DNA of 41,235 nucleotides, from positions 1-41,235 of the forward strand of contig JAKSYS010000573.1 of assembly GCA_022925895.1 (NCBI GenBank). Direction: 5' to 3'. Shown piece by piece: positions 10,415 through 35,219 of this stretch; within the stretch, counting starts at the first letter, position 1, and each line of letters starts with the position of its first letter. Position numbers and translations under genes: made by a program. The notes beneath the pieces were generated by a model. It ran no database searches, had not been told where the DNA came from, and was given only the letters and a program-made list of their open reading frames with translations. This DNA is from Fragilaria crotonensis. Lineage: Eukaryota; Bacillariophyta; Fragilariophyceae; Fragilariales; Fragilariaceae.

Positions 10415-10735
10415 GAGTGGGCTCTTTGGATCTTATGGATATCGATGGATTTCTGGAAAGTTCTCAGCAACAAAGGGACTTGCATGCAAACAGGGCCGCG
10501 GCTCGAGGGGAATGCCCGCTATGACATTTGCATATGTCGCATTTATGTCAGTATGCATAGTCATGTTATAGTTGTCTCGTATGGTCTTACGGGGATTGGA
10601 CGATGGAGGACGATCGGTAGATCATAGTACCTGGTACAGGTATGAATAGTCCAACAACAGCGGTGTCTGTACTCCGAGTACGATGGTGCGGTATTGTCGT
10701 ACAGTGGTATGGTACCCGGTACTTTCATATGTAGG

Positions 10736-12856: not shown

Positions 12857-13056
12857 ATCAATCATGGATGACAGTTGTCGGGTTCAAGCAATCGTTGAAC
12901 ATGACAATGACGACTCTATCACATCAGTAAATATACACGAGTCTAATCAATCATTCCCCGTTTTAAGTCCAACCCAGCATAACCAACTCCAAATAACCAA
13001 CAGTCCATCTCCCCGCACACACAATCATCACCAACAGCACCATTACTGCAAGTCAC

Positions 13057-16000
13057 ATGCAGGCGTCACTCAATCCAAGGCCACCGATGTTATTGACACC
13101 GATTCAAGTCATATGCCAGACAAACCAGGTATACGGTCTAAACCCAGCACTTCCAACAGCGATAACAAATCAAATACCGGCAAGAGAAAACGTCATCAAC
13201 ACCGCGTTACAACAAGCTCAAACTCAGTGGAGAGACCTTTTCCAAAACAGATCCTCAGAAACACTTCAGCAAAATGATCCCGCAGCGCGACCATTGGCGA
13301 TGACGGTAGAAAATCAACGACAAAATGAAGCATGGGGAGATATCTTGCAAGACAAAACCCAAACTGATACACGGATCTATGCAATGAATGTTAATGGCTT
13401 ACGATTGGATAGACTTGGGGGACAATTTCATAACCAATGTCAAGTACAAAAAGAAGTACAGGCGGACATTTTCTGTGGACAAGAGCACAACCTGGACTCC
13501 GATCAGACACAAGTGCGAAGTATATTGCACGAGACAGTACGCCAACATTGGCCCAAAACACGCATCTTATTTGGAACAACACCGATCCCCTTTTCTAACA
13601 TGTACAAGCCAGGCGGAACTTACATGGTTAGTACAGGCGACATCACAGGACGCATCATGCATCAGGAAAAGGATAAATGGGGACGGTGGGTCAGTCAAAC
13701 CTTCAGAGGTCAGGCTAACCGTCATATTACGGTCATTTCAGCATATCAAGTGGTTGGAAAACCGTCATCTCCTGGTTGTATTACAGCGGCTTCTCAACAG
13801 CAAAGTTTACTACTTCAATCCCAGGACCCAACGTCAAATCCTAGAACTGCGTTTCGACGAGACCTGTCACGGTATCTCAAACAGCAAAAGGAGAAAGGCC
13901 ACGAGATCTTATTGGTTGGAGACTTCAATGAACCGTTTGGAAGTGATCCCGATGGAATGGAGAAGATTGCAGCAGAGGCACAGCTGCTCGATTTGATGAG
14001 CATTCGGCACTCCAATCGTCCTCCAGCAACGTACGCCAGAGGTCGAACCCGCTTGGATTACGCTCTCGCTACAACACATGTCGCGGCAGCACTTACTAAA
14101 TCTGGATATGAGCCATTCAATGAAAGATTCCACACCGATCATAGAGCGTACTTCCTGGATTTTAACACAGCGCAACTCTTCGGTGCCTCAACTCCGAAAC
14201 TTGATTCGTCATCTCGTCGAATTTTGAAGTCAAATAATGTCGCTCAAGTCACACAATACTTGAAACTCAAGTATGATATGCTGCTAGCTCATAATGCGTT
14301 CGAGCGGGCAAACGCATTATCCCAACCAGGTGATCGTCATGCATTTGCAGAACGCTTAGACAAAGACATGGTGGCTGCGAGCCTTGCCGCGGAATCAAAA
14401 ATGAAACAGGTAGGAGAACCGGCATGGTCAGTCGCCTTGATGAATGCAAGGCAACTTGTTACAATTCTTTCGAAATGTCATTCGATGTTGAGTACAGGAT
14501 TGGATCACCGACCCCAAATCCAACAATACATAAAACTATCAAAGGATATCATGTTCGTCGCCCCGACTACACGACAAGAGAGTAATCAACGCCTTCGCCT
14601 TGCAAAACAAGTCGTACTGGCACTGGTAAAGACAAGTTTTGAACGAAGAGATTTAGAACGAAACCAACGAATCAAAGAACTGGAGACGTCCATAACAGGA
14701 GGAGCGAAAGTACAGGCGAAAATTCTAAGACGTATTCGAAAAGCAGAGGCATTGAAGAAGGTGTTTGGTAAAATCAGAAACCTTCGAAATCCTCATCTCC
14801 GACAAGGTCTTACACGCATCGAGATACCAATCCACCAAGGAGAAGATCCAAGATCGTGTGTTGAGTGGAAGCAGATCGACGTTCCAACAGAAGTATTATT
14901 TCACATACAGCAAAGGAATCGGGAACATTTCGGGCAAGCGCAAGGGACACCATTCACAATAAACCCTTTGGCGGAAGAACTAGGATTTCAAGGGAACGGC
15001 GTTGCAGCGGTCGATATCTTGAAGGGCACATATAGTGCACCATACAATATGGATCCGAATGTTGCCTTACTGTTGTCACACTTACAGCAGACAGAGCAGA
15101 TGGCAGCCCTCGAGTCACAACCAACTATCTCGGAAGAAGATTATGTGAGTAAGTTGTTAGTATGGACAGAATCCACCACAACGTCACCTTCAGGCCTTCA
15201 CTTGGGGCATTATAAGGCACTGACGGCGAACCATCAGTATTCCAATGTGGACAATGAGGGAGGAGAAGAAACCGAGGACTCACAAAATCAAACACAATGG
15301 AATCACATGCAAAGTCGAATGCTAACCCTACACGTGCAAATGCTGAATTATGCGTTGGAGCGCGGGTATTCGTATACACGATGGCAAACAGTCATCAACA
15401 CCATCTTGTTTAAAGATATGGATAATGTTCGAATCCATCGAACCCGAGTTATCCATATATACGAGGCAGATTACAATTTGACTTTGGGGATCAAATGGCG
15501 AGCCGCATTATACAAAGCAGAGGAATTAAAGGAGTTAAATGCAGGCCAGTATGGATCGCGACCGTATCGCAATGCCGTAGATCCAGTTCTCATAGAAGAA
15601 CTACAGTTCGAGATATCCAGAGCATCTCGGAAAACAATGGTACAAACAAACTATGATGCAATGTCTTGCTACGATCGTATTATCCCCAATTTGGCCATGC
15701 TCGTGAGCAGAAAGTTTGGAGTCTCGGACAAAAATACAACGACAAATGCGAGTACATTGGAGAAAGCAACATATCACATTCGCACGGAGATGGGGGTGGC
15801 AGAAACTGGCTACGGGCATACACCAGAGTGGCCCATTTATGGAACTGGACAAGGAAGCGGGAACTCACCGATGATCTGGTGTTTCCTGTCATGTGTTTTA
15901 TTTGATTGTTACGATATACAATCCCATAAAGCAAAGTATTGCAATCCTGACAGGAGCGAACCATTGGAACTTGGGATGATCGGTTTTGTTGATGACTGCA

Positions 16001-17484
16001 ACGGTCAAACCAACGAATTTCACGAGGATGAGACAAATCAAACTATACCAACAATTCTTCACAACCTTCAAGCCAATGCGCAGCTGTGGGCGAATCTACT
16101 TGGAGCCAGTGGAGGGGCATTGGAATTATCTAAATGCTCGAGTCATATAGCCAAATGGCAATTTTCTATCCAAGGAGATCCGATCCTCACAAGTGTTCCG
16201 CAAATTATACAACAACCGATAACAGTTGTGGATCCCAATACAGCAGCAGCGCATGACATGTCATTTTTGTCCCCTTTTGAAGCACATAAAACATTGGGCC
16301 ATTACAAAGAACCAGCGGGCAGTCAGCAAGAGCAATTCAGGCGCCTCCGGACAAAAAGCGACAGTTGCACGGAATTCTTGTGGCAATGCCAAATGACTCA
16401 CGAAGAGTCATGGACATTCTACTATGCGTGCTATTTGCCAAGTATTGGCTATCCACTGTCATGCTCCTCGTTAACTTTTAAACAATTGGATCGTGTCCAA
16501 AGGAAAGCAATGGGAATCATTGTCGCAAAATGTGGTTACAATCGGAATACGAAGAAGGAAATTCTGTACGGGCCATTGTGTTATGGAGGAGCGAATTTCC
16601 GCCACTTGTATGTGCAACAAGGAGTCGGTCAAGTTACCACTTTCTTGAAGCACTGGCGAGCAGGGACAGTGGTGGGAAACCTTTTGCGATGTGCGTTGGC
16701 TTGGACACAAAATACAGCAGGAACTTCATGGTCTATGTTGCACGATGTAACAACAGCCCTTCCACATCTCGAATCAAAATGGTTGGCATCACTCCGAACA
16801 TTCTTGGCTACCATTCGAGCTCGAATTGAAGTCGATCACCCGGGAATTCCGAGTAAACAACGCGAACATGATAGCTACTTGATGGATCATATCCTTCAGT
16901 CGGGACAATTTACACCAAGTCAAATCCGGCGGCTCAACTATTGTAGACTGTACTTGCAGGCGGTTACGATGTCAGATATTACTGACATTTCGGGGAACAA
17001 ATTGGATGTTAGTATTCGTCAAGGTATGCCATCAGAGAAGAGCAGTACAACACAGTGGCTTCGCGTTAATCAAGATCGCCCATCGGACGCAATCTGGAAG
17101 CTGTGGAAGAAAGCAAATCTCATATGGAGTACTGTCGAAGGCAAGTTGCTTCAACCACTAGGAAAATGGCTAATCCCAAGTGCGGCTCAACGCAATCGTC
17201 ATTTTGCATACACTTATGGTGACCAGTTAGCAATCCGAAGCGGCGATGGTTATCACATCTACACAACGATTCCACCATTACAGTGTTACTTTTCTACCGA
17301 CACTATCTTATCTTTTAACCAGCTCCCGGCGGACGCTCACCCTCGAGAATCTCACTATTGTGCGTACACTCGCACGTGGCGACTTCTAGCATCAGCATCT
17401 GCTCCCCTATATGACCCCCGGACCCGCCAACACTTATCCAACGTTCGCAACCTACATCACAAAGTTCGAAGTATGGGAATATGA
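13057..17484 (+). CDS. LINE ORF2: EEP endonuclease and reverse transcriptase
   Basis: 1475 residues from the ATG at 13057. Residues about 105-375 are an endonuclease/exonuclease/phosphatase domain: AMNVNGLR, GQEHN with E143, LLVGDFNEP with D289 and N291, and FHTDHR with D361/H362. The reverse transcriptase domain (about 690-1080) has motif A TNYDAMSCYDRI (D867), a GTGQGSGNSP motif B-like stretch and motif C FVDDCN (D979, D980). All expected catalytic residues are present. The frame ends at 17484, but the neighbouring frame continues with RNase H from about 17420. A one-base change in the five-C run at 17415-17419 would join them. Upstream, an open frame starting at ATG 12849, overlapping the ORF1 stop by 8 bp, may supply the true N-terminus. 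Confidence 0.85.
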   Translation: MQASLNPRPPMLLTPIQVICQTNQVYGLNPALPTAITNQIPARENVINTALQQAQTQWRDLFQNRSSETLQQNDPAARPLAMTVENQRQNEAWGDILQDKTQTDTRIYAMNVNGLRLDRLGGQFHNQCQVQKEVQADIFCGQEHNLDSDQTQVRSILHETVRQHWPKTRILFGTTPIPFSNMYKPGGTYMVSTGDITGRIMHQEKDKWGRWVSQTFRGQANRHITVISAYQVVGKPSSPGCITAASQQQSLLLQSQDPTSNPRTAFRRDLSRYLKQQKEKGHEILLVGDFNEPFGSDPDGMEKIAAEAQLLDLMSIRHSNRPPATYARGRTRLDYALATTHVAAALTKSGYEPFNERFHTDHRAYFLDFNTAQLFGASTPKLDSSSRRILKSNNVAQVTQYLKLKYDMLLAHNAFERANALSQPGDRHAFAERLDKDMVAASLAAESKMKQVGEPAWSVALMNARQLVTILSKCHSMLSTGLDHRPQIQQYIKLSKDIMFVAPTTRQESNQRLRLAKQVVLALVKTSFERRDLERNQRIKELETSITGGAKVQAKILRRIRKAEALKKVFGKIRNLRNPHLRQGLTRIEIPIHQGEDPRSCVEWKQIDVPTEVLFHIQQRNREHFGQAQGTPFTINPLAEELGFQGNGVAAVDILKGTYSAPYNMDPNVALLLSHLQQTEQMAALESQPTISEEDYVSKLLVWTESTTTSPSGLHLGHYKALTANHQYSNVDNEGGEETEDSQNQTQWNHMQSRMLTLHVQMLNYALERGYSYTRWQTVINTILFKDMDNVRIHRTRVIHIYEADYNLTLGIKWRAALYKAEELKELNAGQYGSRPYRNAVDPVLIEELQFEISRASRKTMVQTNYDAMSCYDRIIPNLAMLVSRKFGVSDKNTTTNASTLEKATYHIRTEMGVAETGYGHTPEWPIYGTGQGSGNSPMIWCFLSCVLFDCYDIQSHKAKYCNPDRSEPLELGMIGFVDDCNGQTNEFHEDETNQTIPTILHNLQANAQLWANLLGASGGALELSKCSSHIAKWQFSIQGDPILTSVPQIIQQPITVVDPNTAAAHDMSFLSPFEAHKTLGHYKEPAGSQQEQFRRLRTKSDSCTEFLWQCQMTHEESWTFYYACYLPSIGYPLSCSSLTFKQLDRVQRKAMGIIVAKCGYNRNTKKEILYGPLCYGGANFRHLYVQQGVGQVTTFLKHWRAGTVVGNLLRCALAWTQNTAGTSWSMLHDVTTALPHLESKWLASLRTFLATIRARIEVDHPGIPSKQREHDSYLMDHILQSGQFTPSQIRRLNYCRLYLQAVTMSDITDISGNKLDVSIRQGMPSEKSSTTQWLRVNQDRPSDAIWKLWKKANLIWSTVEGKLLQPLGKWLIPSAAQRNRHFAYTYGDQLAIRSGDGYHIYTTIPPLQCYFSTDTILSFNQLPADAHPRESHYCAYTRTWRLLASASAPLYDPRTRQHLSNVRNLHHKVRSMGI

Positions 17485-17652
17485 GCTTTTACGGCACGTC
17501 AATATCACCACCGATCCGACGACATTCTGTGACAGCCTAACCCAAGGCCTCCGAGCCGTTAGTGATGGCTCAGTAAGATACAATACCCAAGGAGCGTACG
17601 GATGGAGTTTGAGTACAGCCAGTGGTGAACGAGTCGCAACAAATATGGGCCA
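17485..17652 (+). pseudogene. LINE RNase H domain, 5' fragment
   Basis: In the frame one base on from ORF2 the sequence reads VSDGSVRYNTQGAYGWSL, the first beta-strand of RNase H with its catalytic Asp. It breaks off at NMG where the DNA transposon begins at 17653. The matching remainder starts at 27777. Confidence 0.85.
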
Positions 17653-17676
17653 CATCAGAAGGTGCGTTTTGTTTAG
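17653..17676 (+). repeat. Left terminal inverted repeat of the 10.1-kb transposon
   Basis: Begins CATCAGAAGGTGCGTTTTGT. It matches the reverse complement of 27753-27776 with one mismatch, then diverges. Confidence 0.92.
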
Positions 17677-18291
17677 GAAGTCATATTTTGTTTAGATATT
17701 TTGCGACTTGTAACAATTTTTGTTTTGTTTATGATTTAATATGTTTAGATCACATTGGTTTTTTGTATATTTGTTTTTAATTTGGTTTTAAGGAAACGTC
17801 AGATGTTTGTTTCATAATATTTATTTGTCCTTTATCATTACAATTGTGTTGCATATCATATTTTACGTTCTCATACAACATATGACAAAAAATACTTGGT
17901 GTCTTTCAAGCATTAAATAAGGTAGATAAAACCAAACTGTTTTATTATCCAAACCCAACTGTTTTATTGTAGACGTTGGTTTATTGTTTGTAACAACTTA
18001 TAATGTATCCTGAACTTTGGTTGTCTACTGCAAGCTTTTTATTGTTTTTACTAACCGTACTGCTTTCCTCTCAACGACCAATGCTTTTTTTACTCAACGT
18101 GTTTTGTTTTATCTTCATCATTGATATGTTTTTGTATGTGCTTATGAAAAAACAAACACACTCATTTTCACTTTCTTTTTTCCCGAGTCACCAGCACTGT
18201 GTGTTTCTCTACCAATGTTTTGTTTTTTAACATTGCTTAACATCAGTTGATCAGCACCTTATTGCTACTTTATACCTAATATTGTATCATC
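17677..18291 (+). promoter_or_regulatory. AT-rich subterminal region and transposase promoter
   Basis: No gene. It repeats TTTGTTTAG/TGTTTAG several times near the end (for example about 17690 and 17742) and contains TAACAATTTTTGTT near 17710. A close relative, GAACAATTTTTGTT, occurs at the other end in inverted orientation (about 27670-27685). Such subterminal repeats are transposase-binding sites in CACTA-type elements, so the same role is inferred. The region must also contain the transposase promoter; no clear TATA assignment is made. Confidence 0.55.
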
Positions 18292-21200
18292 ATGTCCTCA
18301 GGTGCCTCCGGTGTCCTTGAGGAATGTGCTGGTTGCCATAAAACCTTTAAGAGGCTTGCAACTCATATTGCTCAAAGTCCGACGTGTGAGCAGGTCTACG
18401 CAACATGCCAAGATGATATTCCTCCTGACTGTGGTGAAAGCAAAACGTCAACACGACGCGCCTCAACAAGGAGTACAAGATGGGTTTCCTCCGACTTGTT
18501 GCCCCGTGAAACCAATGGTGCAGTGATTTGCAATGATGTGCCATTGCCTTCTGGCAACGCATCAGCTGGTGTAGGCACCAGCACTATTCAGCCGCAAGAA
18601 GTGCAGGTACACAACGACAGTGGACAGCATCATGACAACGAGGATTGCGGATTTGCATCGTTGGATGACCCATTTCCTCTGAGTGACGAGGATGCTGACA
18701 CTTCTTTTGTTAAGGAAGGGGAACCTGATAAATGCGTCATGAAACTTTACGAGGAACTGCTTGAGTCACGAGCAAATCCACTTGGCCTAGACAGGTTTTC
18801 TTGCGAGGAAAAAGTTCATATTGAGTTGTTACACCTTCTGAAGGTGCTGAATGCACCTCTGATAGCCTTTACTCATATTCTGAAATGGGCTGCACAGGCC
18901 AATGATAGTGGACATGTATTCCAGGTAGACTGCCAACCATCCCGAAAGAACGTCGTTCAAAAGTTGTACTGCAGGTACAACATGAAGGGGTTGATACCAA
19001 AGGAGAAGCTGCTTTATCTGCCATATTCAAAGAGATTGGTGTCAATGATATATTTCGATGCCTCACAAGTCTTTGCCTCACTCCTGTCATGTCCTCTCCT
19101 GAATCGTGATGAGAATTTTATGTTTCATGAGCACAGGGACCCTTTTGTTGTGCCTTCCAGGTCTGCTGACATTGGCGACATCAACACCGGTCGATGCTAT
19201 CGAAAAACGTACAAAGCATTGGTGAAGAACAGGGGTGTCGACATGATTTTACCAACAATCTTTGCAATGGACAAGACACAGGTAGACACATATGGTCGGA
19301 TGCAGATGGAACCGATGACCATGTCACATGGCCTTCTCAAGCATGAAGTTCGATCAAAGCACAGTGCAATGCGAATCCTTGGGTATATATGCCAATTTCC
19401 TGCTCACAAGCCAACCTCCAAGAAAGGTACAAACTCTGCAGTTGCTGTCCCCCAGGCCACAGACCTGCCCAATGGCACTGTTGTCGGTGATGTTTCATTA
19501 CTCAAGCAAATCCCAAACGTAAGCTGGTCCACCTATCTCCTTAATGAGATGCACATGCAGATCAAGTTTATCCTTGAAGAATCGGGATTCCTTGAATTGC
19601 AGCGCAATGGTTTCAAGTGGATGCTACATTACAATGGGAAAATCCATCCCATTGTCCTGCACCCTTACATTCCATTCATAATTGGCGATACGGAGGGCCA
19701 CGATCGCCTTTGTGGGCACTACACTGCCCGCTTCAGCTCGGTAAAGCAACTTTGTCGTGTGTGTGAATGTCCCACCCTCCAGTCTGGGTGGTCAAAGGCA
19801 AAGTATCGCCACCGGAAGCCAGCAGTTATCAACAAGCTCGTGAGGTCAGGTGACTTGATAGGACTGAAAGACATGTCACAGAACTATCTGGTCAATGGGT
19901 TTGACCAGGTTCGCTTTGGCCTACACAATGCGAGGGGCATATTTGGTGCGTGCCCTGGCGAGATGTTGCATCTCATATCCTTGGGCTGGTTCAAATACTG
20001 TCTGGATGCCTTCTGTGCGCAAGCAGGTGGCAGCACCTCATTAGCGTTAAAGCAGTACGACTCCTTATGTGCCTCGATTGGGAAGAGATTGTCAAGGCAC
20101 AGCGACCGTGATCTGCCGCGAATGAACTTCCCAAAGGGCTTCTCTTCTGGAGCGAATCTGATGGGTCATGAAATAACTGGGTGTCTCTTGGTGAAATTGT
20201 TTGCACTTCACACCACCAGATTCCGACAGATTTTCTCTCCGCCGAACAAGAAGTCAAAGAAGTCAAAAGGTGATGACCCCGGACTGCAAAGGCTGAGCAA
20301 CGCTGCACATGTTGAGGATTGGAAGCTCATTGTTTCATCGCTCCTCCAATGGCACCAGTGGATGAAGCAGCCGACCATCTCCAAATTGCAAGTAGGGAAA
20401 TCACATTGTGCTGTTCAGTGGCTTATGCGTCAAGTAGGGCGTGTTGCTCCCAGACCTAAGGGCATGGGTAGTAACACTATCAAGACCCACCTGGTCCTCC
20501 ACCTCAGCGAAGACATTCTTGATCACGGTGTTCCAGATAATGTTAACAGTGCCTACGCCGAATCAGCACACATACCACTATCAAAGATAACTGCAAGGAA
20601 CACACAAAAACGTGCATCAACATTCACTCTGCAGGCGGCCAACAGGTATGTTGAAAACATTGCAATCGCAGCAGCATGGCAAGACATGCAGCAGGATATC
20701 ATGGCCAACAATGAACTAGCAGGCAACAGTGACACAACTCCAACACCTGACAATGATGCAACTCCAACACCGTCTGGAACATTGTCTGGCCGAGGATTTT
20801 CAATCATGTGGAATGCTGGTGATCTGAGCCCAAGCTTAGTCTGGAATCGTACATATCCAACTGACAATTCTGGAGGTGACTCCCTTTTGCTCAACGTGAT
20901 GCGCTTCCTTGGGCGACAGTGTTTGCCGCACATGACTGATGGTAAGCTTCCATGTTACACAGAGTTCATCTGTGCAAATGGACACAAGTACCGGGCACAT
21001 CCAAGTGTGTACAATGGCAAACCTTGGAATGACCACGCCATGGTCAAGTGGCATGGGTACGCTTATCCACTGCCGGGATTAATTCACGCCTTTGTAGACC
21101 TTCGCCAGCTGTCTCCTGGTGCAAGGATTATCCTCCGAGAATCAGGACAGCCTTCGATAACTGCAGCAGGGGTGTATGCAGTCATACATTCCTTCTCCCC

Positions 21201-21759
21201 CCTCGACAATGAGAGGGAGTTTTCCAACACTATGATTGGCCATTACAAGCTTGATCGCAATGGTCCTGAACGTTCATTGCCAACATTATACATGGTTGAC
21301 GCGAACAATCTTGTGGCACCAACAATAGGAATTCGTGACGTTGGCATGTCAGAAGGCTTGCGTGTCGAGGATGAACATTATCTTTTCCTCTTTCGGAGGA
21401 AAGATGACTGGGTTTCATCTTGGGACTCAATGATCAACAAGTGTCATCAATCCAGAGATTCACCAACTGACGAAAGTGAGTATGATGATTCCACCCACGA
21501 ACTTGATGCCAATGAGGATCTCATTGGCATTGAGGAAGATTCCGACAACAATGCCAATGACGACAAGGATGATGCCGTTGAAAAGGAGGAAGATCATTCA
21601 GATGATGACAATTGTGATGGGGCAGATGTGGACAGCGAGGAAGAGGAGGCGGTAGACGAGGAGGAAGCCGCTGATGAGGAGTTTGCTGACGGAGAAGCAT
21701 CTGACGAGGAAGATGTTTGCCCACCGCCACCAACAAAGAGGAAGAAGCAAAGGAGGTAG
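18292..21759 (+). CDS. Plavaka/CMC-like DDE transposase
   Basis: A 1155-residue protein. The N-terminus has a CCHC zinc finger (C12, C15, H25, C32). The catalytic core has D327 in FAMDKTQVDTYGRM, a second acidic cluster in IIGDTEGHDRLCG (D466, D471) followed by CRVCECP, the motif CPGEMLHLISLGWFKY, and E757 in YAESAHIPLSKITARN. This order (DKTQ; GD; P-D/E-xLH; E-x-HI-xx-K) is that of fungal Plavaka-type transposases, relatives of CACTA/CMC elements. A C-terminal module with YRAHPSVYNGKPWNDHAMVKW is also typical of that group. The tail is a long Asp/Glu-rich stretch ending in TKRKKQRR, a likely nuclear localisation signal. It would cut and rejoin the element at its inverted ends. The candidate DDE triad is D327/D466 or D471/E757, inferred from alignment by eye. 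Its stop lies 35 bp from the stop of the convergent gene. Confidence 0.75.
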   Translation: MSSGASGVLEECAGCHKTFKRLATHIAQSPTCEQVYATCQDDIPPDCGESKTSTRRASTRSTRWVSSDLLPRETNGAVICNDVPLPSGNASAGVGTSTIQPQEVQVHNDSGQHHDNEDCGFASLDDPFPLSDEDADTSFVKEGEPDKCVMKLYEELLESRANPLGLDRFSCEEKVHIELLHLLKVLNAPLIAFTHILKWAAQANDSGHVFQVDCQPSRKNVVQKLYCRYNMKGLIPKEKLLYLPYSKRLVSMIYFDASQVFASLLSCPLLNRDENFMFHEHRDPFVVPSRSADIGDINTGRCYRKTYKALVKNRGVDMILPTIFAMDKTQVDTYGRMQMEPMTMSHGLLKHEVRSKHSAMRILGYICQFPAHKPTSKKGTNSAVAVPQATDLPNGTVVGDVSLLKQIPNVSWSTYLLNEMHMQIKFILEESGFLELQRNGFKWMLHYNGKIHPIVLHPYIPFIIGDTEGHDRLCGHYTARFSSVKQLCRVCECPTLQSGWSKAKYRHRKPAVINKLVRSGDLIGLKDMSQNYLVNGFDQVRFGLHNARGIFGACPGEMLHLISLGWFKYCLDAFCAQAGGSTSLALKQYDSLCASIGKRLSRHSDRDLPRMNFPKGFSSGANLMGHEITGCLLVKLFALHTTRFRQIFSPPNKKSKKSKGDDPGLQRLSNAAHVEDWKLIVSSLLQWHQWMKQPTISKLQVGKSHCAVQWLMRQVGRVAPRPKGMGSNTIKTHLVLHLSEDILDHGVPDNVNSAYAESAHIPLSKITARNTQKRASTFTLQAANRYVENIAIAAAWQDMQQDIMANNELAGNSDTTPTPDNDATPTPSGTLSGRGFSIMWNAGDLSPSLVWNRTYPTDNSGGDSLLLNVMRFLGRQCLPHMTDGKLPCYTEFICANGHKYRAHPSVYNGKPWNDHAMVKWHGYAYPLPGLIHAFVDLRQLSPGARIILRESGQPSITAAGVYAVIHSFSPLDNEREFSNTMIGHYKLDRNGPERSLPTLYMVDANNLVAPTIGIRDVGMSEGLRVEDEHYLFLFRRKDDWVSSWDSMINKCHQSRDSPTDESEYDDSTHELDANEDLIGIEEDSDNNANDDKDDAVEKEEDHSDDDNCDGADVDSEEEEAVDEEEAADEEFADGEASDEEDVCPPPPTKRKKQRR

Positions 21760-21794
21760 CACGTAAGCAAATGATACCAGTACGTCCTAGTAGT

Positions 21795-24020
21795 TCAATA
21801 TGTAGACCATCCTCTTTTTTTCTTTGGTATCCGGTACTTCCCACCCACCTCCAAGTCCTCAACACACACCATGCCACCACCATCAACCTCTCCTTCCAAC
21901 ACAGGACATACAGCAGCTGCGCCAGCATCACCTGAAGCAGCAACGTCCCCACCCTCCGCACAACCAACAGCCCCGACATCAGAGAAATCGGCAACAGCAC
22001 CGCCCCCCCTTCGCCTCTTCTTCTTCCTGCGGCGGCGCCTCCTCCTTTTGGTAGTAGGTATTCCATCAGAACTGTTGGACGAATCATCAGAGCCCATGGA
22101 GGCGGGAGGGGGACAGGGTGGTTTACTTGCCGCTGCAGCAGCACACTGAAGTCTTCCAGCCTGCACAACCCTCTCTTTTGCGGCAGTGAATGTCCCATAA
22201 AGATGGTTCTTGAAACAGTTCCTTCCATCACCGACCCTCTTGCCATCAATCCCATCCGGCATAGAGAGAGAAGTGCAATGTCTGATAACTCGACCATCCC
22301 AGCTTATGGTGACACCATGTGAGAGCCTTATGGCAACGCCTGCAAATGGGCGACCATCTGGTCTCATTCCATGCAGATTTGGCATTACAAAATACCAATT
22401 GACACCAAGGCCACGGATCTCCTCAGTCCATACACTGTATCCCTGAGAAGCATCATGGACATCAAAGTGCGAGGAATTTCCAAGGTTGACACTCATGTCA
22501 ACTGTGTACCCAGCATGACATCCAGCTGCACCATCCATAGGAGGCACCGGCAGGAGACCTGAATCAGATTCCAAATCCCTGATCACAGCGTAAACCTGAG
22601 GAAAACAGTGACGGCCAATTCGAGACAAGGACACGACCATGCGCCGAAGGAGTCCTTCCGAAACGTAGCCGTTTGCTGCGTAGGGCAGAGTGCCAACCCT
22701 GTCCAAGTCCACCAGCGTTCCAATTGCGTGCATCGTTCCAACATCACCACCCTTTGCCCTGGCACTGCCCTTTGATGACCGCCTGCGCAATACCTCATTG
22801 TGCAAAGTGATGTCGTTCAACACACCCTCGTCACCGTCACCGAAGAATGCATTCCGGATCATCACAACCGACTGACGGTCCTTAAACTGACCCATTTTCG
22901 CCACATCAACCATCAAGTCGACATTGTTCATCATTTTTGGATCGATGATCCAACATCGTTCCGGTATCCGGAAATGGTGACAAGATGGAGCATAGTGTCG
23001 GCCGTCCTTCCTGGCGCTGTTGGCACCCGCCAGCCGTTTGTTGTACTCTGCAGCGAGGTAGTCATGCGGCCAGGAGGCACAATCCTCCCCAAGAAACACA
23101 TCAGGCGCCAGCATAGGACCATCGCTGTCGGAGCATTGCTTCACCCTGTACATCACGCGTTTCTTCCTGAAGTCAGATGTTCTCCTCCTAGAAATCCTCC
23201 ATGCAGATACCGAGCACACGTGCTCCTGGTGAAATCGCTTCACGTACCCACCCTCACCAAAAGTATACAACACAGATCGGCCAGCAGGCCCCTCCTCCCT
23301 TTCCAGACGTAACCAGCTCATATCAAGTGGGACAAGTGATTTTGGCACTCCAACACACTCATCACGCCGTTCCCTCGCACAGTAAAAAACACCACACTGA
23401 GGGAGGAACAGGATCATGGCCCTGAATTTGTGGTCGTTCTTGTCAGCCTTGTCCTCGGGCTTGTATGAGCGCACCAACCTGACACAATCCTCTGCCTCCC
23501 CCTCCCTGTTCAGGGAGGGAGGAGGTGCACCATCATTGTCCCCAACCTCGTTCCCATCCTGACCATAGGGACACCGATTTAGGATGACGTCCATGAGGTA
23601 GAACTCGTCGAGGTACTCGGACACTGTTCCGGATTCCCGGAACATCTCGTTCATGTGTGTTAATTGGAAGGGATAATCACATTGGTAAGCCCTTGAAATC
23701 CAATTGAGCGGAGTCTTGCCAATACAGGCATCATCTGGACGCTCCTCCTCCCCAGTTGTTGCCACATCCTGAAAGCGCCTCTCAAATTCGCTGCGCTCCT
23801 CGGGAACCACAGCCCTTGACAACAATGCCATAATTTGCTGCTGGGATGGGAGGAACTTCCGAGGTTTCCGATCAGGAAGTGTCACGACAGTTGACGCCCC
23901 CGATGCTGACGCACGACTTGTCCGTTCCAAGTTCAGAAACGTTGTCTTGCACGGAGAAGTTCTTCTGTTGTCAGCAATCCGATCACGGTCACTTCTTCGA
24001 TCGATTTTTTTGCGCGACAT
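21795..24020 (-). CDS. 2OG/Fe(II) dioxygenase-like protein (TET/JBP-like?) carried by the transposon
   Basis: 741 residues. The N-terminus is basic (SRKKIDRRSDRDR). Residues about 60-480 are globular and cysteine-containing without a recognised domain. The C-terminal part has the layout of a double-stranded beta-helix dioxygenase: SSHFDVHDASQGYSVWTEE with H518 and D520 as the proximal metal ligands, then NWYFVMPNLHG, then HGVTISWDGRVIRHCTS with H581 as the distal ligand and R595 or R599 as a candidate 2-oxoglutarate-binding Arg. H-x-D-x-H-(D/N) followed by a polar strand resembles TET/JBP enzymes, which oxidise 5-methylcytosine or thymine in DNA. The tail is basic (RRRRRRKKKRRR), a nuclear signal, then acidic and low in complexity. 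The catalytic call is motif-based; TET/JBP placement is tentative, and another DNA- or protein-directed 2OG enzyme is possible. Confidence 0.6.
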   Translation of the reverse strand: MSRKKIDRRSDRDRIADNRRTSPCKTTFLNLERTSRASASGASTVVTLPDRKPRKFLPSQQQIMALLSRAVVPEERSEFERRFQDVATTGEEERPDDACIGKTPLNWISRAYQCDYPFQLTHMNEMFRESGTVSEYLDEFYLMDVILNRCPYGQDGNEVGDNDGAPPPSLNREGEAEDCVRLVRSYKPEDKADKNDHKFRAMILFLPQCGVFYCARERRDECVGVPKSLVPLDMSWLRLEREEGPAGRSVLYTFGEGGYVKRFHQEHVCSVSAWRISRRRTSDFRKKRVMYRVKQCSDSDGPMLAPDVFLGEDCASWPHDYLAAEYNKRLAGANSARKDGRHYAPSCHHFRIPERCWIIDPKMMNNVDLMVDVAKMGQFKDRQSVVMIRNAFFGDGDEGVLNDITLHNEVLRRRSSKGSARAKGGDVGTMHAIGTLVDLDRVGTLPYAANGYVSEGLLRRMVVSLSRIGRHCFPQVYAVIRDLESDSGLLPVPPMDGAAGCHAGYTVDMSVNLGNSSHFDVHDASQGYSVWTEEIRGLGVNWYFVMPNLHGMRPDGRPFAGVAIRLSHGVTISWDGRVIRHCTSLSMPDGIDGKRVGDGRNCFKNHLYGTFTAAKERVVQAGRLQCAAAAASKPPCPPPASMGSDDSSNSSDGIPTTKRRRRRRRKKKRRRGGGAVADFSDVGAVGCAEGGDVAASGDAGAAAVCPVLEGEVDGGGMVCVEDLEVGGKYRIPKKKRGWSTY

Positions 24021-24029
24021 GATAACCTT

Positions 24030-24790
24030 GCACCAGTCCTATTGTCGAGGCACGAACACTCTCGTAGACGTTCGCAGCACGTTGTGAACAGCAGTCGCTC
24101 AACCCACTGTATGGCAGGGAGCAACCGCACGAACAAACGTTGCGAACGATCAGACGATAACGATGACGACGATACCAGTCGTATGGTCGAGACACAAACG
24201 CCGCTCTCGTAGACGTTCGCAGCACGTTATGAACAGCAGTCGCTCAACCCACTGTATGGCAGGGAGCAACCGCACGAACAAACGTTGCGAACAATCAGAC
24301 GACAACGATGACGACGATACCAGTCGTATGGTCGTGGCACGAACGCTCTCGTAGACGTTCGCAGCACGTTATGAACAGCAGTCGCTCAACCCACTGTATG
24401 GCAGGGAGCAACCGCACGAACAAACGTTGCGAACGATCAGACGATAACGATGACGACGATACCAGTCGTATGGTTCAAACGCTCTCGTAGACGTTCGCGC
24501 GTTATGAACAGCAGTTGCTCAACCCACTGTATGGCAGGGAGCAACCGCACGAACAAACGTTACGAACGATCAGACGACAACGATGACAACGATACCAGTC
24601 GTATGGTCGCGGCACGAACGCTCTCGTAGCCGTTCGCACGAAAACGACAACGAGGACGACGATACCAGTCGTATGGTCGTGGCGCGAACCCTGTCCTCGT
24701 AGACGTTTGCACGACGTTATGAGCAGCAGCAGCCAGTCACTCAACCCACTGTATGGCAGGGAGCAAGAACTGCACGCTCAAACGTTTGCA
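24030..24790. repeat. Tandem array of ~140-bp CpG-dense repeats
   Basis: The marker CTCGTAG(A/C)CG recurs at 24061, 24206, 24348, 24484, 24623 and 24696, giving unit lengths of about 145, 142, 136, 139 and 73 bp; the array is partly decayed at its right end. Each full unit contains ACTGTATGGCAGGGAGCAAC, AAACGTTGCGAACGATC and GACGACGATACCAGTCGTAT. Hand counting gives about 18 CpG in one 142-bp unit, far above the flanking AT-rich DNA. Within a unit, GACGTTCGCAGCACGTT and AAACGTTGCGAACGATC form an imperfect inverted pair. The array begins about 10 bp upstream of the dioxygenase-like gene's start codon and lies between two divergent genes, so it may act as a shared regulatory or protein-binding array. 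Confidence 0.9.
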
Positions 24791-25650
24791 GTTCCTGGGC
24801 TTCTTTCTTGTTTAAACTACAAGTTGTGACCACAGCGTGCTTGCTGGTTGAGTCTAGTGTGAAATGTACACGGAAACGACGTACATTGCATACTAGACTC
24901 AAAATTTGGTGTACGGGAAGGACTCACTTTACTATCATGCATTCTAGAGGTAACCTGTCATAGAACTTCACTCAAAAAATAATAAAGGGGCAAATCACTC
25001 TAAGTACTTTCAGTACTTATTGGTCTTGGGAGTGGAGCATGAATACCATATATATATCAATGAGTTGTAGGTACGTATACGTAATCGACGATCACATATA
25101 TGCTACCCTTTATTTTTATTAAATGTAAAACAAGATAGAATAGTGTTAAATATCAATATACATGACACATTCAAAGCAGAATTAATATTATGCGTCATCT
25201 GGGTTAATTGTACTACTACGCGTACGAAGAAGTATTCTTCACGAACGGAGATACTCCTACTAGTACTATGCCAACGACAACTCTACTACAACGTACTATT
25301 CGCATTAGAGTACACGCCTGGCAATCACGTTTATGAATCACAAGACAAAAGAGCATGTGATTTAACCAAAATAGAGCGTGAAATACAATTGCATGCAATT
25401 TATAGCAATGATCACCATGTATTCAAACAATACACATGTATAACTAAATCATGAATACGGGTGTTCTCAATATACAAGGTTATATATGTGTACTTTCAAA
25501 ATGTACGTAGCCGTGATTTGAAAACGACTACTCACCAAACAAACTTCACAACCTACACAAAAAATAGAGTGAAGCAAACACGTATTGCACCTGTTCACAA
25601 CACAAAACTCATACAAATTCCACTTTCTCCTGAAGTCGTCAACATCAACA
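24791..25650. other. AT-rich spacer inside the transposon, promoter side of the 578-aa gene
   Basis: No gene is seen. Composition changes sharply from the CpG-rich array to AT-rich sequence. It holds a palindromic ATATATAT-type stretch near 25050 and the presumed promoter and 5' leader of the gene starting at 25651. Confidence 0.5.
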
Positions 25651-27387
25651 ATGGCTCCTCCAACCCCTCCAACACCACCTCCACCAGCACCGCAACAACC
25701 AAAGGAAGTTCGCAAGTCTCCTCGCACCCTTAAAAAGGAAGAATTAGAGAGAAGAAAGGCAAGATATGAGCAGGCTGCATTAGAGTACGAGGCTCACGAG
25801 AAGCTGGTAGCTGCAAGGAAGAAGCTGAATAAAAAAGCGGGCCCCAAGAAAACAGTTGGAAAAAAGACAGGGAAAAAGCGTGTGAATGCGACACACAAGA
25901 GGAAGAGGAATCCACCGCCAGGTAAGCCAAACAAAAATCGTGCGAAAAATGTGGAGTTTGATTTGCTTGACGATGGTGGCGGCGACAATGATAACGATAA
26001 CAATAATGATAACGATAACGACGATAATGACAATGATAACGACAACGACAATGGCAACGACAATGGCAACGGCAGCTGGAACAACTATGACAATGGAAAT
26101 GACAATGGCAATGACGACGACGACGATGACGATGATGTTGGAGGGAAAAACGATGGTAACGATGATCATGACGGCGTCAAGATCGTCGGCAAGCGCAAAG
26201 TTGATGATGACGACGATGATGACGAGAGCTATCATGACGATGGCGAAGATATGGATTTGGACGAGCCTTTAGAAGGGGTGGTTGACGATGATCTGGATTC
26301 GGATGATGATCAGGATTCGGTCAGCACTTCAGGCCAACACGGAGAAAATGAGATGCAGAGAAGGGATGGGGAAAGGCGGGGGGTGTCGACCAGTACCGGC
26401 CATACAGCCAGTGCGGTACAACCAATTCCGGTTGTCAGAACACCAACACCTGCGGACTCATCACTTCTGAATATAGATGGACTGCTCCACATTCGTGGAA
26501 TGTCGAGGTCGGAGTCGCTAAAATGCCGACAGAAGTTTGTGACTCAACGAGTCAACACATTTGTCAAAGCAACACTATTCCGGAAGATCAAGTTCATCAA
26601 CACCGATAACAGTTTCCAAAGGGCAATGAAGTTGGTGATGGATCACGAGGATGTGCCGCCTCAACATCGTCTCAATTTCCAGAGGACATATGAGAGTGTT
26701 TTTAATGAAGCACTGAATTCAAAGAGGAGTGCCTGCGAGCAATCGGGCGGAAGGATTGCTCGCAAAACCATTGCTGAGTTTGAGACATCTGGAGAGGCCT
26801 TCTTCACCATGGATGAAGTCTCAAAGCTAAGAAGAGCAAACACGGACCGAGAACGGAAGGCTTTCTTTTGGTTCTTCGGAACGTTCTTGGAATGTGTGAG
26901 TGGAAAAAGACATTGGGGAGGAAAGAAGTACCTTGAGTTGGTTTCAAAAGCGAAAGATAAAGATGGTGGTGGTCGAAACAATGTTGTCACAAAGAGCGAC
27001 GAGGCATTTGCATTGCTGATATTTGAGAATTACGTAGATAAGTGGATATTGCAGGTACAAGGAACCGTTCCCGTGAATGCTGCCAATGCTGGTGGTAAGC
27101 CAAGGATGAAAGGTAAATACACTGGAAAATCGAGTGGGCACTGCAAATATGGTGGGTGGAGTCCTGAAGGAATTGTACGGTTCAATGAACTAAAGAAACT
27201 GGTGGAGGAAGACAGAGTATGCCCGCAAGCAGAGACAATGGAAAAGGAATTGCTGGAATTTTCCAGGAGTCAACAGAAAGGTGGAGGCCGTGGAGGGAAC
27301 ACACAAGGAGAACAGGGGAACAATGCTGCAAGGCCTGAAGCAATGGAGTCGTTTCTTGTGGAAGCTGCATGGGATTCAGATGAGTAG
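25651..27387 (+). CDS. Transposon accessory protein with basic, acidic and globular regions
   Basis: 578 residues from the ATG at 25651. The start MAPPTPPTPPPPAPQQP leads into a Lys/Arg-rich segment (about 20-105) that could bind DNA. Then comes an Asp/Asn-rich run (about 110-250) made by GAC/AAC-type codon repeats. The C-terminal globular part (about 280-540) includes LRRANTDRERKAFFWFFGTF, a block ending VDKWILQVQ, and a C-terminal YGGWSPEGIVRFNELKKLV. I recognise the last motif as typical of uncharacterised algal proteins associated with mobile elements, but I cannot name a domain. Position inside the inverted repeats says it moves with the transposase. A role as a DNA-binding partner is inferred from composition only. 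Confidence 0.7.
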   Translation: MAPPTPPTPPPPAPQQPKEVRKSPRTLKKEELERRKARYEQAALEYEAHEKLVAARKKLNKKAGPKKTVGKKTGKKRVNATHKRKRNPPPGKPNKNRAKNVEFDLLDDGGGDNDNDNNNDNDNDDNDNDNDNDNGNDNGNGSWNNYDNGNDNGNDDDDDDDDVGGKNDGNDDHDGVKIVGKRKVDDDDDDDESYHDDGEDMDLDEPLEGVVDDDLDSDDDQDSVSTSGQHGENEMQRRDGERRGVSTSTGHTASAVQPIPVVRTPTPADSSLLNIDGLLHIRGMSRSESLKCRQKFVTQRVNTFVKATLFRKIKFINTDNSFQRAMKLVMDHEDVPPQHRLNFQRTYESVFNEALNSKRSACEQSGGRIARKTIAEFETSGEAFFTMDEVSKLRRANTDRERKAFFWFFGTFLECVSGKRHWGGKKYLELVSKAKDKDGGGRNNVVTKSDEAFALLIFENYVDKWILQVQGTVPVNAANAGGKPRMKGKYTGKSSGHCKYGGWSPEGIVRFNELKKLVEEDRVCPQAETMEKELLEFSRSQQKGGGRGGNTQGEQGNNAARPEAMESFLVEAAWDSDE

Positions 27388-27752
27388 TATAATCAATTAA
27401 CAACAAACTTATACAATGCCGTCTAGGGATCAATTAGACAACAGCATCAACATGGATGGGGAATCAACATATTTGGCTACAACGGAACCATATGTTATCA
27501 ATCAGAGTGTTTAAATAAACCAAAGAAAGATCACTTGCATCAACATTTTGTGTCAGTAGAAATGAAAAACGTCCACATAAACGTTTTAATTATACCAAAT
27601 TTGGTGTACAGATTGTTTGCTACTGACCTTTTATTGTTTAGATATAACGATATTTAGTTACATAACAAAAATTGTTCAAAACTAACCCTCGAAATTTATA
27701 TAGACATCGAACGTTTGATCCTAAAATGTTAGTACTAAACATTGAATAAAAA
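27388..27752. promoter_or_regulatory. Right subterminal region of the transposon
   Basis: AT-rich and non-coding. Inverted relative to the left end it contains GTTTAG words (about 27651, 27734) and GAACAATTTTTGTT (about 27670-27685), echoing the left end. These are candidate transposase-binding sites. Confidence 0.5.
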
Positions 27753-27776
27753 CTAAACAAAGCGCACCTTCTGATG
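27753..27776 (-). repeat. Right terminal inverted repeat of the 10.1-kb transposon
   Basis: The reverse complement begins CATCAGAAGGTGCGCTTTGT, one mismatch from the left end. The adjacent CA (27777-27778) duplicates 17651-17652. Confidence 0.92.
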
Positions 27777-29225
27777 CAAGTGTATAGCCCACGTCCTCAA
27801 TCCTTCCGAGCAGAAGGATATGGAATGCTGTCCTTTCTTCGGTTTCTAATCCGAATGGCGGAGTTTTCCTCGTATGCCGAGCCATGGACGGGTATTATCG
27901 GCACGGATAGCCAGAGCGTGTTAGATACGTTGGCAGGTAAAGCACCGGAAGGGGAGACTCGACAACAGCGATTACAGGAGCCAATTCACATCACGGGAGA
28001 TACAGTAACTCTTGATCCCCTGTGCGCAGATTGGGATGTATTGATCGAGATCCAATATGCACTGCAGCAACTTCCAGGCCTCAGTATACAATACGTTAAG
28101 GGACATCAAGATCGGACAACCGCAGTTGGTAGGTTGCCATTAATGGCACAGTTGAATGTCGAAGCAGATTCAATGGCGTCCCTCTACCAGGATTTGCATG
28201 GCGATTATCGTCCGATAGTAGGGTTGACCCCACGATCTCGCGCACATCTGCACTTCACGTCCGGAACCATTACATCAGCATATCCAGCGGCTATACGACG
28301 GGAATATAGTGGCGATTCATTACTTGAACATATTCGCATTCGAAATAAATGGACTGAAGAGATCACCCAGTCGGTAAACTGGGACTCCCATGGAACCGCC
28401 TTGAGTAAGCATATTCAAGGACGACTTCATTACTCAAAACTGGTTCACGACATTCTCCCGACATTAGCATTCTTAAATAAACAAGACAAAGGAAAGCGAT
28501 TGTGCCCATGTTGCAACCATCCAAATGAGACGCGAGATCATATACTGCGATGCACAGCTCCTTCACGGAATCGGTGGCGCCACGCGTTCTTGACTTCCTT
28601 GGAAAAATTCTGTATTGAACATCACACAGCACCTGAATTGCAGAACTTGTTACTCGAAAGCTTCCGCGGCTGGCTGTACCATGATGCGGACAGCGACTTC
28701 ATGCCCAACCCACTGCAATATCCACCGTCGATACGATCTCTTATTGCACAGCAGACAGCAATTGGGTGGCGTCAATTGTTTAATGGAAGGTTTGGAGTCC
28801 AATGGAGCATTGTCCAAGAAACATATGTACGTCGCACTCAGATAACCCAGACAGGAGCAACACGAAGTCTCACTGGACAAAAATGGCAGACACAATTGAT
28901 CTTGTTCGTATGGGAAAGGTGGAAAGGATTATGGAAGCTCAGAAATGAAAGCTTACATGGGAAAGACAACGCAGCGCAAGCCGAGGCAGAGACCAAGGAA
29001 GTCAAGCGCCGTTTGGTAGAAATCTATGATCTCCGAGCTCAAATGGAACCGAGCGCCCAGGAGTTGCTCTGCCAAGACCTTCAGCAGCATATGTTAAAAC
29101 CAACATGGGCAACAACGAATTGGCTAAACATCCATCGCCCACTGTTTCAGGCAAGCCTTCGACGAGTAAAGACCCGAGCAATACAAGGAGTCCGAAACAT
29201 CCGGACATACTTTGCCCCCATCTGA
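27777..29225 (+). pseudogene. LINE ORF2 C-terminal fragment: rest of RNase H and CCHC knuckle
   Basis: Continues the RNase H domain broken at 17652: QSFRAEGYGML supplies the catalytic Glu, GIIGTDSQSVLDTL the next Asp, and LNVEADSMAS the last acidic residue. A 270-residue C-terminal region follows with a zinc knuckle (CPCCNHPNETRDHILRC: C-x2-C-x7-H-x4-C), usual at the end of LINE ORF2. No stop or shift occurs within this part, so the domain was open when the transposon landed. The first ATG after the junction (27774) is formed partly by the transposon end and should not be read as a gene start. Confidence 0.9.
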
Positions 29226-32583: not shown

Positions 32584-33332
32584 TTTGATGGATGACGCGT
32601 GTTGTGTGCTGTATGGGACGTTTGGTGTTGGAAAGAGGAATGAAGATCTCTAGAGTCGCAAGTAGAAAGGGCGACGGCTCAAGGTTTGTTTTGAGCGTCG
32701 ATGGTGATAAATCCTGACTTGGAACAGGGAATGCCCTGCCAGGAAGATTCGTGGTTCCAGTTCCAGGTGGTGTGTCAAGTGTCAAGAGTCAAATCATATC
32801 GTCCAAACGTTGTCAGCGCTCAACTTGAAGTTCTCACGTTTCAATCATCGGGGCCGTCGTCTACCTATCTTCCATCAGGGAGGTCCGGTAAAATGACGTT
32901 TCTTCTCGTAGCTTCTACATGCAATTAATACCAAGGAGAGGTGCGTGGCCGGACCTTCCAGCGCGTCGAACGTCTAGTACATAGTGTACGTGGTGGTACT
33001 CGCTCGTCGGAGTTAAATGACGTTTTCCATCTGAAGTGAAGAATGCTACATTTTTAAGTTGGACTTTTTCTGTGTCACCCGTCGCACCACAGTCACCACC
33101 ATGAAGAAGAATCATTGAGCAGATTGAATCTTGTTGTTGTGGAGAAGGAAACTCCAAATTGAGCATTTTAAACTTTTATCATTTTGTCACAATAATGTTG
33201 ATGTCGAGAGAGAGCGGCATCGATTGTTGTACGATTGCGCGGAAACGATGGAGATATATAAGTCAGAGTCGACAATGCGAATCTCCTAAATATCTGGTAT
33301 CACACAGACGATGGAAACGATGCCAACAAGCC
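32584..33332. other. Divergent promoter region
   Basis: Shared 5' region of the small membrane protein (-) and the plastid carrier gene (+). In-frame codons upstream of 33333 (for example ATG at 33195) could extend the carrier protein but would bury its signal peptide. No separate gene is seen. Confidence 0.5.
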
Positions 33333-35219
33333 ATGATGTTTGGCTTGTTGCTCGTATGTGCATGTCCAGGCGCCTGCGAGGGCTTCACTGCTCCGCTGGA
33401 ACTGCGTCAACGCCATGCACTACTGCAAAACTCCTTTCCGTTAAGCGCCATAAAACGGCATCGCTCTGAAATGGTGAAGTCAACGACTTCGTTGATTAAT
33501 CGCCGAGATGCTCTTATCGCAGGAATTCTCTTGTCGGCTGCAGTAACAGCTGCTCCCTCAACTGCGCGCGCCGACGTTGATTCTTGCGGATTGGAAGACC
33601 TGGTCATTGGCAATGGAAGATGGATCAATACCAAGCGGGTGACTCCCGCCCAATCTGTAGATGCGTCGGCTCCATCGTCGTTTCTCTCGCATGACAGAAA
33701 CGTTCCCGCCACATTTTCGACATATGCGGCGCGATTTCTTCTCCACTACGATGATGGCGTCTCCTCCTGGTGGAAGACTGTTTTGGAGTCGTGTTCTCTC
33801 TTGTCGGATGAAGGACGATGTGACAAAGTTGGTGCTTGTTTTGGATGCCTGGCACGATCGATTCAAATTGCCATTGAGACGTCAATACAAGGAGCCCCAA
33901 CTGTGCAAGAGGGATATCAAAATTTGATGTCCACCTTTTTACAGCACTACGGCAACGACAAAGAGGCACGACGGCATATTGGATTGCTCTTTGCAATGTT
34001 ACCACATGATAATCAACCCACCAAACTCTTAGAGCAAGTCTCATCCAGGATAGTGTCGACGAACGTGGTAGCAACGACAGGCGCCAATATGCCACCTCCA
34101 GCCATGATGAAAGACTTCACAGTCCTGTTTCCACCCATCTATGAATGCGCTCACGTCCGGGGGACGGACTCATTCACGATATATCCACCTATCTCACTCT
34201 ATGAAAATACGATCAAGGACGATCTCGGCCGAACTGCAGTGAGGACTGCGATTGGTCCTCTGGGGACCCTTCCTTTGCAACGAGAGCGTCCCCATTTGAG
34301 TAGTCTCATTTACGCATTGTTTGGGATTTCGGGAGCCGCCGGATGTGCCTTGACCCATACTGTTGTGATTCCACTCGATGTTGTCAAGACGCGTATGCAA
34401 ACCGATGGACAGCTGAGCGGTGAGTCGATGCTCGACAGTGCCTCGAGCATTTTGCAAAAGGAAGGCATGGCGGGGTTTGTGCTTGGCTTACAGGCTACAA
34501 TTGTTGGGTACATATGGTACGGTCTTTCCGTCTATCCTAGTTACGCATTTTTCAAACGATGGATTGGACAATCCCTACTCCGCCCTGAGTTTGTCATGAT
34601 TCACACCAACGAGATCGCTTTATGTGCTGGAGCATTGTCGGCCGTGATTGCAAGTCTAGGATTGACACCAGTGGAAGCCGCGCGAATTCGAACTGTGGCC
34701 AATCCGGATGTGTATCGTTCCAAGGGGTTGATAGGTACATTGCAATCAATTGCGTCCGAAGACTCAACATTAGGCTGGAAAAATCTCTATGCCGGCTTTC
34801 CGTCCTTGGTGACACGCCAAGTCATTTTTGGGTCCGTCAAGTTTTTGGCCTTTGAACGTGCCTGCGAAGCCATCTTTCACACTTGGCCATTTCTTCACGA
34901 CGAAACATGGACTTCGTTGATGGTGAGCCTGGTAGCGGGCGGGTTGTCGGGGTGCCTGTCCAGTGTTGTGTCACAACCGGCAGATTCTCTCTTGACGTAT
35001 GTGGCACAGAACAGTAATGTTGGCCTTCTGGAGGGATCTCGGATTATGGTTGAAAAAGAGGGAGTCGGATCGCTTTATCGAGGTCTGGGAAGTAGATGCG
35101 TTTGGGCCGGATCAATAATTGCCGGTCAGTTCCTTTTGTACGACGTTTTTCGGACCTATTTTGGTGTGAATACCAATGATCTCTCCCAAGTCTTCGAGAT
35201 TGTCATCTCACCAGGTTAG
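33333..35219 (+). CDS. Plastid-targeted phosphate-carrier-like SLC25 protein with lumen-type presequence
   Basis: 628 residues from the ATG at 33333, chosen because it puts a signal peptide (FGLLLVCACPGACEG) at the N-terminus, cleaved before F18 (FTAP), the diatom plastid import signature. A second signal follows: twin arginines R57-R58, a hydrophobic stretch and ARA at 78-80, like a thylakoid Tat signal. Residues about 81-310 are an unrecognised soluble region. The C-terminal ~300 residues are a mitochondrial-carrier fold with three repeats: PLDVVKTRMQ, PVEAARIRTV and QPADSLLTYV. Wording such as GCALTHTVVIPLDVVKTRMQ and SQPADS is closest to the phosphate carrier (SLC25A3/PHT3). It probably moves phosphate or another anion across a plastid membrane. 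A Tat-like signal ahead of a multispanning carrier is unusual. Confidence 0.75.
   Translation: MMFGLLLVCACPGACEGFTAPLELRQRHALLQNSFPLSAIKRHRSEMVKSTTSLINRRDALIAGILLSAAVTAAPSTARADVDSCGLEDLVIGNGRWINTKRVTPAQSVDASAPSSFLSHDRNVPATFSTYAARFLLHYDDGVSSWWKTVLESCSLLSDEGRCDKVGACFGCLARSIQIAIETSIQGAPTVQEGYQNLMSTFLQHYGNDKEARRHIGLLFAMLPHDNQPTKLLEQVSSRIVSTNVVATTGANMPPPAMMKDFTVLFPPIYECAHVRGTDSFTIYPPISLYENTIKDDLGRTAVRTAIGPLGTLPLQRERPHLSSLIYALFGISGAAGCALTHTVVIPLDVVKTRMQTDGQLSGESMLDSASSILQKEGMAGFVLGLQATIVGYIWYGLSVYPSYAFFKRWIGQSLLRPEFVMIHTNEIALCAGALSAVIASLGLTPVEAARIRTVANPDVYRSKGLIGTLQSIASEDSTLGWKNLYAGFPSLVTRQVIFGSVKFLAFERACEAIFHTWPFLHDETWTSLMVSLVAGGLSGCLSSVVSQPADSLLTYVAQNSNVGLLEGSRIMVEKEGVGSLYRGLGSRCVWAGSIIAGQFLLYDVFRTYFGVNTNDLSQVFEIVISPG

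Follow-up and report, generated by a model that had tools for sequence, protein, structure and literature searches.

A PlavakaB-type transposon in a diatom that probably carries a TET/JBP-fold dioxygenase as an anti-silencing gene

What use might a cut-and-paste transposon have for a dioxygenase of its own? The question is raised by an element in the freshwater diatom Fragilaria crotonensis, on contig JAKSYS010000573.1 (C529), which in its full length of 41,235 bases is the window analysed here and belongs to a genome of 62.1 Mb in 881 contigs. The element holds genes for a Plavaka transposase, a dioxygenase that we call D and a companion protein, together with a CpG-dense array of tandem repeats (Table 1). 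Our answer, to which we give a probability of roughly 0.7, is that it is an autonomous PlavakaB-type cut-and-paste transposon in which the gene for D, an Fe(II) dioxygenase with the TET/JBP fold, acts against silencing.

The argument starts with D. When its predicted structure was compared with solved structures, the best 16 rows were all TET2, NgTET1, CcTET or CMD1, at 6–14% identity over aligned residues. The predicted fold of D is closest to the TET/JBP enzymes, whose core is a double-stranded beta-helix. The HxD..H metal-ligand motif is kept in 64 of 67, 63 of 68 and 61 of 64 rows of the alignment of its relatives (more than 90%), and the ratio of nonsynonymous to synonymous substitution rates (dN/dS) is 0.26, below 1, in the single informative pair of D copies. 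We name D TET/JBP-like by fold, and not as a member of the sequence family, because it has no match to the Tet_JBP profile PF12851, a family also absent among those matched by 56 D members. We infer that D oxidises a methylated base in DNA, and that the element thereby escapes silencing.

The vehicle is easier to name. By its sequence the transposase is Plavaka, scoring 31.8 bits against Pfam profile PF18759, whose cut-off is 26.3. Its residues D327, D466 and E757 and, lying between D466 and E757, C488xxC491 and H733xxxH737 each have a frequency of 1.0 in a 104-row alignment (rounded, over rows with a residue there); a DDE domain with C(2)C and H(3-4)H at this place is the PlavakaB arrangement. 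PlavakaB elements end in CATCA..TGATG and duplicate 2–3 bp of their target (PMC12730594), and the same termini and a 2-bp duplication are found here. The inverted ends are 96% complementary over 24 nucleotides; allowing up to 3 mismatches, the end sequence has 44 matches genome-wide (22 forward, 22 reverse), and its reversed sequence, used as a control, has 0. Flanks were compared for 10 end pairs, with the C109, C331 and C87:95206 pairs left out, and the 2-bp flanks were identical in nine (CA in the window, then TG, TA, TC, TA, AG, TA, GA and TC). The lone pair without matching flanks belongs to C741:5-9935, a three-gene copy at a contig edge, where a rearrangement or an assembly artefact is possible. 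The element of the window sits between two parts of a sequence resembling a non-LTR (long terminal repeat) retrotransposon. The joined flanks find one diverged sequence in the genome (C727, 68%), which over query positions 8–166 crosses the junction at 124 without an insert, a weak candidate, judged by similarity, for an empty site.

The companion begins with an N-terminal helix and a basic region, continues through an acidic disordered linker and ends in a conserved all-helical domain at about residues 285–545. One relative of it, P0225, is filed under a Culicoidibacterales bacterium metagenome-assembled genome, and is probably eukaryotic contamination there. An earlier reading of the DNA by itself, the sequence-only reading, had proposed a single pair of inverted ends enclosing a Plavaka-like transposase, a dioxygenase-like protein, a companion and a CpG-dense array; the ends, the CA duplication, three open frames and the array were all found, the transposase passed its profile cut-off, and structure prediction, which could have told against the reading by showing no double-stranded beta-helix, gave a fold closest to enzymes that have one.

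Do the three genes travel together? A tblastn search of the genome with each protein, in which only the best candidates were scored and the presence lists are lower bounds, gave at least 89 matches to D, at least 63 to the transposase and at least 84 to the companion. Among the matches listed there are 14 clusters with all three genes, and in 14 of 14 the order is transposase forward, D reverse, companion forward. The same matches give 14 clusters of companion and D, 7 of companion and transposase and 3 of D and transposase; a further 30 hold D only, 14 the transposase only, 37 the companion only and 12 the ends only. The sharpest comparison is among end-paired copies of 9.9–11.0 kb. The sequence-only reading had accepted in advance that full-length copies lacking the dioxygenase would refute it, and 8 of 8 such copies hold all three genes, several of the genes being broken. 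In C123, C872 and C242, D was outside the tblastn list yet present in the fetched middle region. A 7.5-kb copy (C98) has a partial transposase along with D and the companion, and a 14.7-kb end pair (C197), which fell outside the D check, has pieces of transposase and companion. Shorter relatives, paired at ends of the CATCAGAAGGTGGGTTTTG type (C37:19690-26362, C331:32727-39778 and C87:95206-98313), show no D or transposase among the matches listed, and are perhaps non-autonomous or another subfamily.

In the protein collection, D and companion relatives lie on contigs of equal size (P0005/P0234, 25362; P0031/P0233, 5544; P0063/P0248, 10751; P0043/P0265, 6320), as do D and transposase relatives (P0033/P0096, 9029; P0066/P0164, 7954). 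These six gene pairs suggest the same linkage in other genomes. Two D loci have an open reading frame for a Ulp1-type peptidase as neighbour (L043:48-965 and L047:3-812, both on the minus strand, PF02902 over cut-off), with no Plavaka transposase detected beside D at either, and in the L047 and L048 copies similarity breaks off after ..GTAATTTCCCC, which differs from the Plavaka end. As a lead, D and its motif array may move between transposon types, a second type among them; moves of fungal TET genes between transposon types have been reported (Kojima 2025, PMC12730594).

The array itself begins 12 nucleotides upstream of the D start codon and has an observed/expected CpG ratio of 1.3–1.8 in 300-nucleotide bins. 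Tandem repeats lie upstream of D at many of the 20 D loci examined, with periods that include 121, 123, 116, 112 and 88; most are CpG-rich, the longer ones at 1.07–2.15, and one, L040 at 0.81, is not. The 20 upstream regions were sorted into 12 groups by DNA similarity and searched for repeated words common to groups. One word stood out, CTRNATGGCAG, on the strand opposite D. Across the 12 representatives it occurs exactly 26 times in antisense, 0 times in sense upstream and 0 times elsewhere in the loci, and eight of the 12 groups hold at least two exact copies, whereas two were never seen in 200 dinucleotide shuffles of each.

Since these same upstream regions supplied the motif, it also had to be tested genome-wide. 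The genome has 380 matches to CTRKATGGCAG and 77 to its reversed sequence, the control. The placement analysis covered the first 100 of these 380 places: 71 form 21 same-strand clusters and 29 are singletons, and a D on the opposite strand lies within 3 kb on the predicted side of 20 of the 21 clusters and of 0 of the 29 singletons. The 20 clusters represent 19 D genes, two clusters on C109 sharing one. Eight of the 21 had no D in the tblastn list; seven of these, with at least three motifs, were fetched on the predicted side, and D was there in six. At L067 (C14:95080-97580), a four-motif cluster, no D was detectable on the predicted side, where transposase-like open reading frames lie. An oriented short motif repeated through noncoding tandem arrays is the layout known from VANC targets.

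Table 1. Positions of the element, its parts and its neighbours in the window
Feature	Position	Strand	Evidence or remark
Left terminal inverted repeat	17653-17676	+	begins CATCAGAAGG
Right terminal inverted repeat	27753-27776	-	closes ...CCTTCTGATG
Target site duplication CA (2 bp), left copy	17651-17652		flank comparison
Target site duplication CA (2 bp), right copy	27777-27778		flank comparison
Plavaka DDE transposase, 1155 aa	18292-21759	+	Pfam PF18759
TET/JBP-fold dioxygenase (D), 741 aa	21795-24020	-	open frame; predicted structure; H518xD520, H581
CpG-dense tandem array	24032-24714		period 142, 4.3 copies at 24032-24638; period 70 at 24574-24714
Motif CTGTATGGCAG, copy 1	24107-24117	+	
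Motif CTGTATGGCAG, copy 2	24252-24262	+	
Motif CTGTATGGCAG, copy 3	24394-24404	+	
Motif CTGTATGGCAG, copy 4	24527-24537	+	
Motif CTGTATGGCAG, copy 5	24749-24759	+	just beyond array
Companion protein, 578 aa	25651-27387	+	open frame
Interrupted target, 5' part, non-LTR-retrotransposon-like open reading frame	12997-17484	+	outside element; Exo_endo_phos PF03372 over cut-off
Interrupted target, 3' part	27750-29225	+	stop-to-stop frame takes in element's last bases; zf-RVT match below cut-off
TPR/Aha1 domain protein	8582-10432	-	ordinary host gene
Mitochondrial carrier	33105-35219	+	ordinary host gene

C5-methyltransferase has 13 matches among the contigs of the genome, the best at 5.9e-67, and one of them is on C869, which bears a Plavaka transposase match as well. 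Between the members of five pairs of transposon copies, 98 substitutions fall at CpG sites where resampling leads one to expect 62, an excess that agrees with CpG methylation of the elements without proving it. The model we favour runs as follows. The host would methylate the CpGs of the element, and the element's 5-methylcytosine, or a related mark, would be oxidised by D, above all in the CpG-dense array, which is probably D's own control region and, lying beside D, may be the place where removal of methylation is sensed or aimed. The oriented CTRNATGGCAG sites could draw in D or a partner protein, for instance the companion, and so direct demethylation to copies of the element itself; cutting and pasting at the CATCA/TGATG ends would then fall to the transposase. 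That D and the array serve against silencing is the best-supported reading and, we think, probably right. Its more ambitious form we hold tentatively, at somewhat less than even odds: that diatom Plavaka elements bring with them a demethylase aimed at themselves, an enzyme of TET fold whose gene is inherited along with an oriented motif array specific to the element, joining VANC-type sequence addressing to TET-type direct oxidation of the base, with a motif that diversified along with the D clades.

Several observations pull the other way. D has no convincing match to a Pfam family, an NCBIfam family or a PDB sequence, and the PF12851 profile run over the genome at E<=1 gave no match. The basic residue that binds 2-oxoglutarate (2OG) is often found some 10 residues past the motif's second H; in D that position, 591 (counting from H581), is variable, and the nearest conserved basic residues are K615 and R623. 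Taken singly, four of the five copy pairs show no significant CpG excess (P 0.09–0.25), and one does. Two of the 12 upstream groups have variants of the motif only (CTGTATGGCAA three times, ATGTATGACAG six times), and in two others (L038 and L050) no such motif array was found. A D tree was drawn from 26 rows, of which 23 carry a motif variant, and the six variants fit it with the minimum number of changes, 5. The tree was built quickly, and the tool warned of its long branches; motif and D clade would agree as well if they were merely inherited together. The motif could simply be a promoter element of D.

That last point is the heart of the main rival, in which D is a TET/JBP-fold enzyme, the CTRNATGGCAG array is a plain D promoter read by a host transcription factor, and any demethylation is untargeted by sequence. 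We regard it as a serious possibility that falls a little short of probable. The motif clusters lie 5' of D in a fixed orientation, and the array starts as near to the start codon as a promoter might. On the other side, five or six motifs in long CpG-dense tandem repeats (in the window and in C137/C76) seem beyond what a promoter needs, and the layout resembles the VANC target arrays described in PMC5735166. Some D loci hold just 2–3 motifs, and so the argument from copy number is a weak one.

An unlikely alternative turns the chemistry around: D would not erase silencing but would write a modification, be it hydroxymethyl, glyceryl-methyl or one on thymine, by which excision is controlled or the element is marked. 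CMD1 is among the structural neighbours of D, and it fits as well that the place where 2OG is usually bound lacks a conserved basic residue. It is very improbable that D does nothing for the element, whether as a passenger or as a captured gene in decay: decayed D loci, and D loci that lack a detected transposase, are many (the 30 D-only clusters, among the matches listed), but the gene's place and orientation are constant in all 14 three-gene clusters, every copy of 9.9–11.0 kb has it, the dN/dS of its one informative pair is low and its catalytic motif is kept.

How does the element, read as a transposon with an anti-silencing dioxygenase, compare with what is known? The sequence-only reading took an algal or diatom Plavaka with a dioxygenase to be a separate case. 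The diatom host stands; the kind of case is already on record, since TET+ PlavakaB transposons have been described in fungi (Kojima 2025, PMC12730594), where the association is credited to Iyer 2014. According to that paper the fungal Plavaka with a TET/JBP gene are all PlavakaB, and their enzymes are of the PE type with HxE. The likeness is close: a C2C + H3-4H transposase, CATCA..TGATG ends, 2–3 bp duplications and a TET/JBP-fold gene inside the element. Here, unlike there, the host is a diatom, D forms an HxD family, a companion gene is conserved and an oriented motif array lies upstream of D. The passages of PMC12730594 used here make no mention of such an upstream array or of a Plavaka companion, and the word 'diatom' is absent from its text. 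An open-access literature search on Plavaka, TET/JBP, dioxygenases and diatom or algal transposons returned no report of this diatom case; a green-alga paper that it listed (PMC12633428) has one mention of Plavaka. As far as that search shows, the diatom case, the HxD family reached through structure prediction, the conserved companion and the motif array are new. They carry the range of TET-like enzymes borne by transposons beyond fungi into a diatom, where the D family escapes the sequence profiles used.

Plavaka transposases outside fungi are also found in Amoebidium, in methylated giant repeats (PMC11244446); those are clusters of repetitive genes of up to 50 kb, many for tyrosine recombinases, and unlike our element they are described, in the passages of that paper used here, without mention of a dioxygenase. 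D shares its predicted core fold and HxD..H motif with TET2, NgTET1, CcTET and CMD1, but differs in being so distant from them as to be invisible to the profiles used. CMD1 makes 5-glyceryl-methylcytosine with vitamin C (PMC12730594).

Two plant systems complete the comparison. Maize Spm/En, with a transposase of a related clade (CMC), has a GC-rich control region and an element-coded factor linked to demethylation; Spm employs TnpA and is not known to use an oxygenase. VANDAL elements are of the MuDR type, and VANC is not, to our knowledge, a dioxygenase. A 9-base motif that recurs many times over, always in the same direction, in noncoding tandem repeats is bound by VANC21 of Arabidopsis, which causes methylation to be lost locally (Hosaka 2017, PMC5735166). 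Our element resembles VANDAL in having a short element-specific motif, in many copies and one orientation, in its own noncoding tandem repeats; it differs in that an oxygenase stands in the place of VANC, and the likeness, known here from sequence, is one of layout only. What the comparison yields is a testable model, in which an array of small motifs directs a demethylase to copies of the element that bears it. Should D be recruited by the motif, nature would have supplied a compact TET system addressed by sequence, and if the motif did diversify with the D clades, each family would have its own erasing system, with an oxygenase doing what VANC does for VANDAL.
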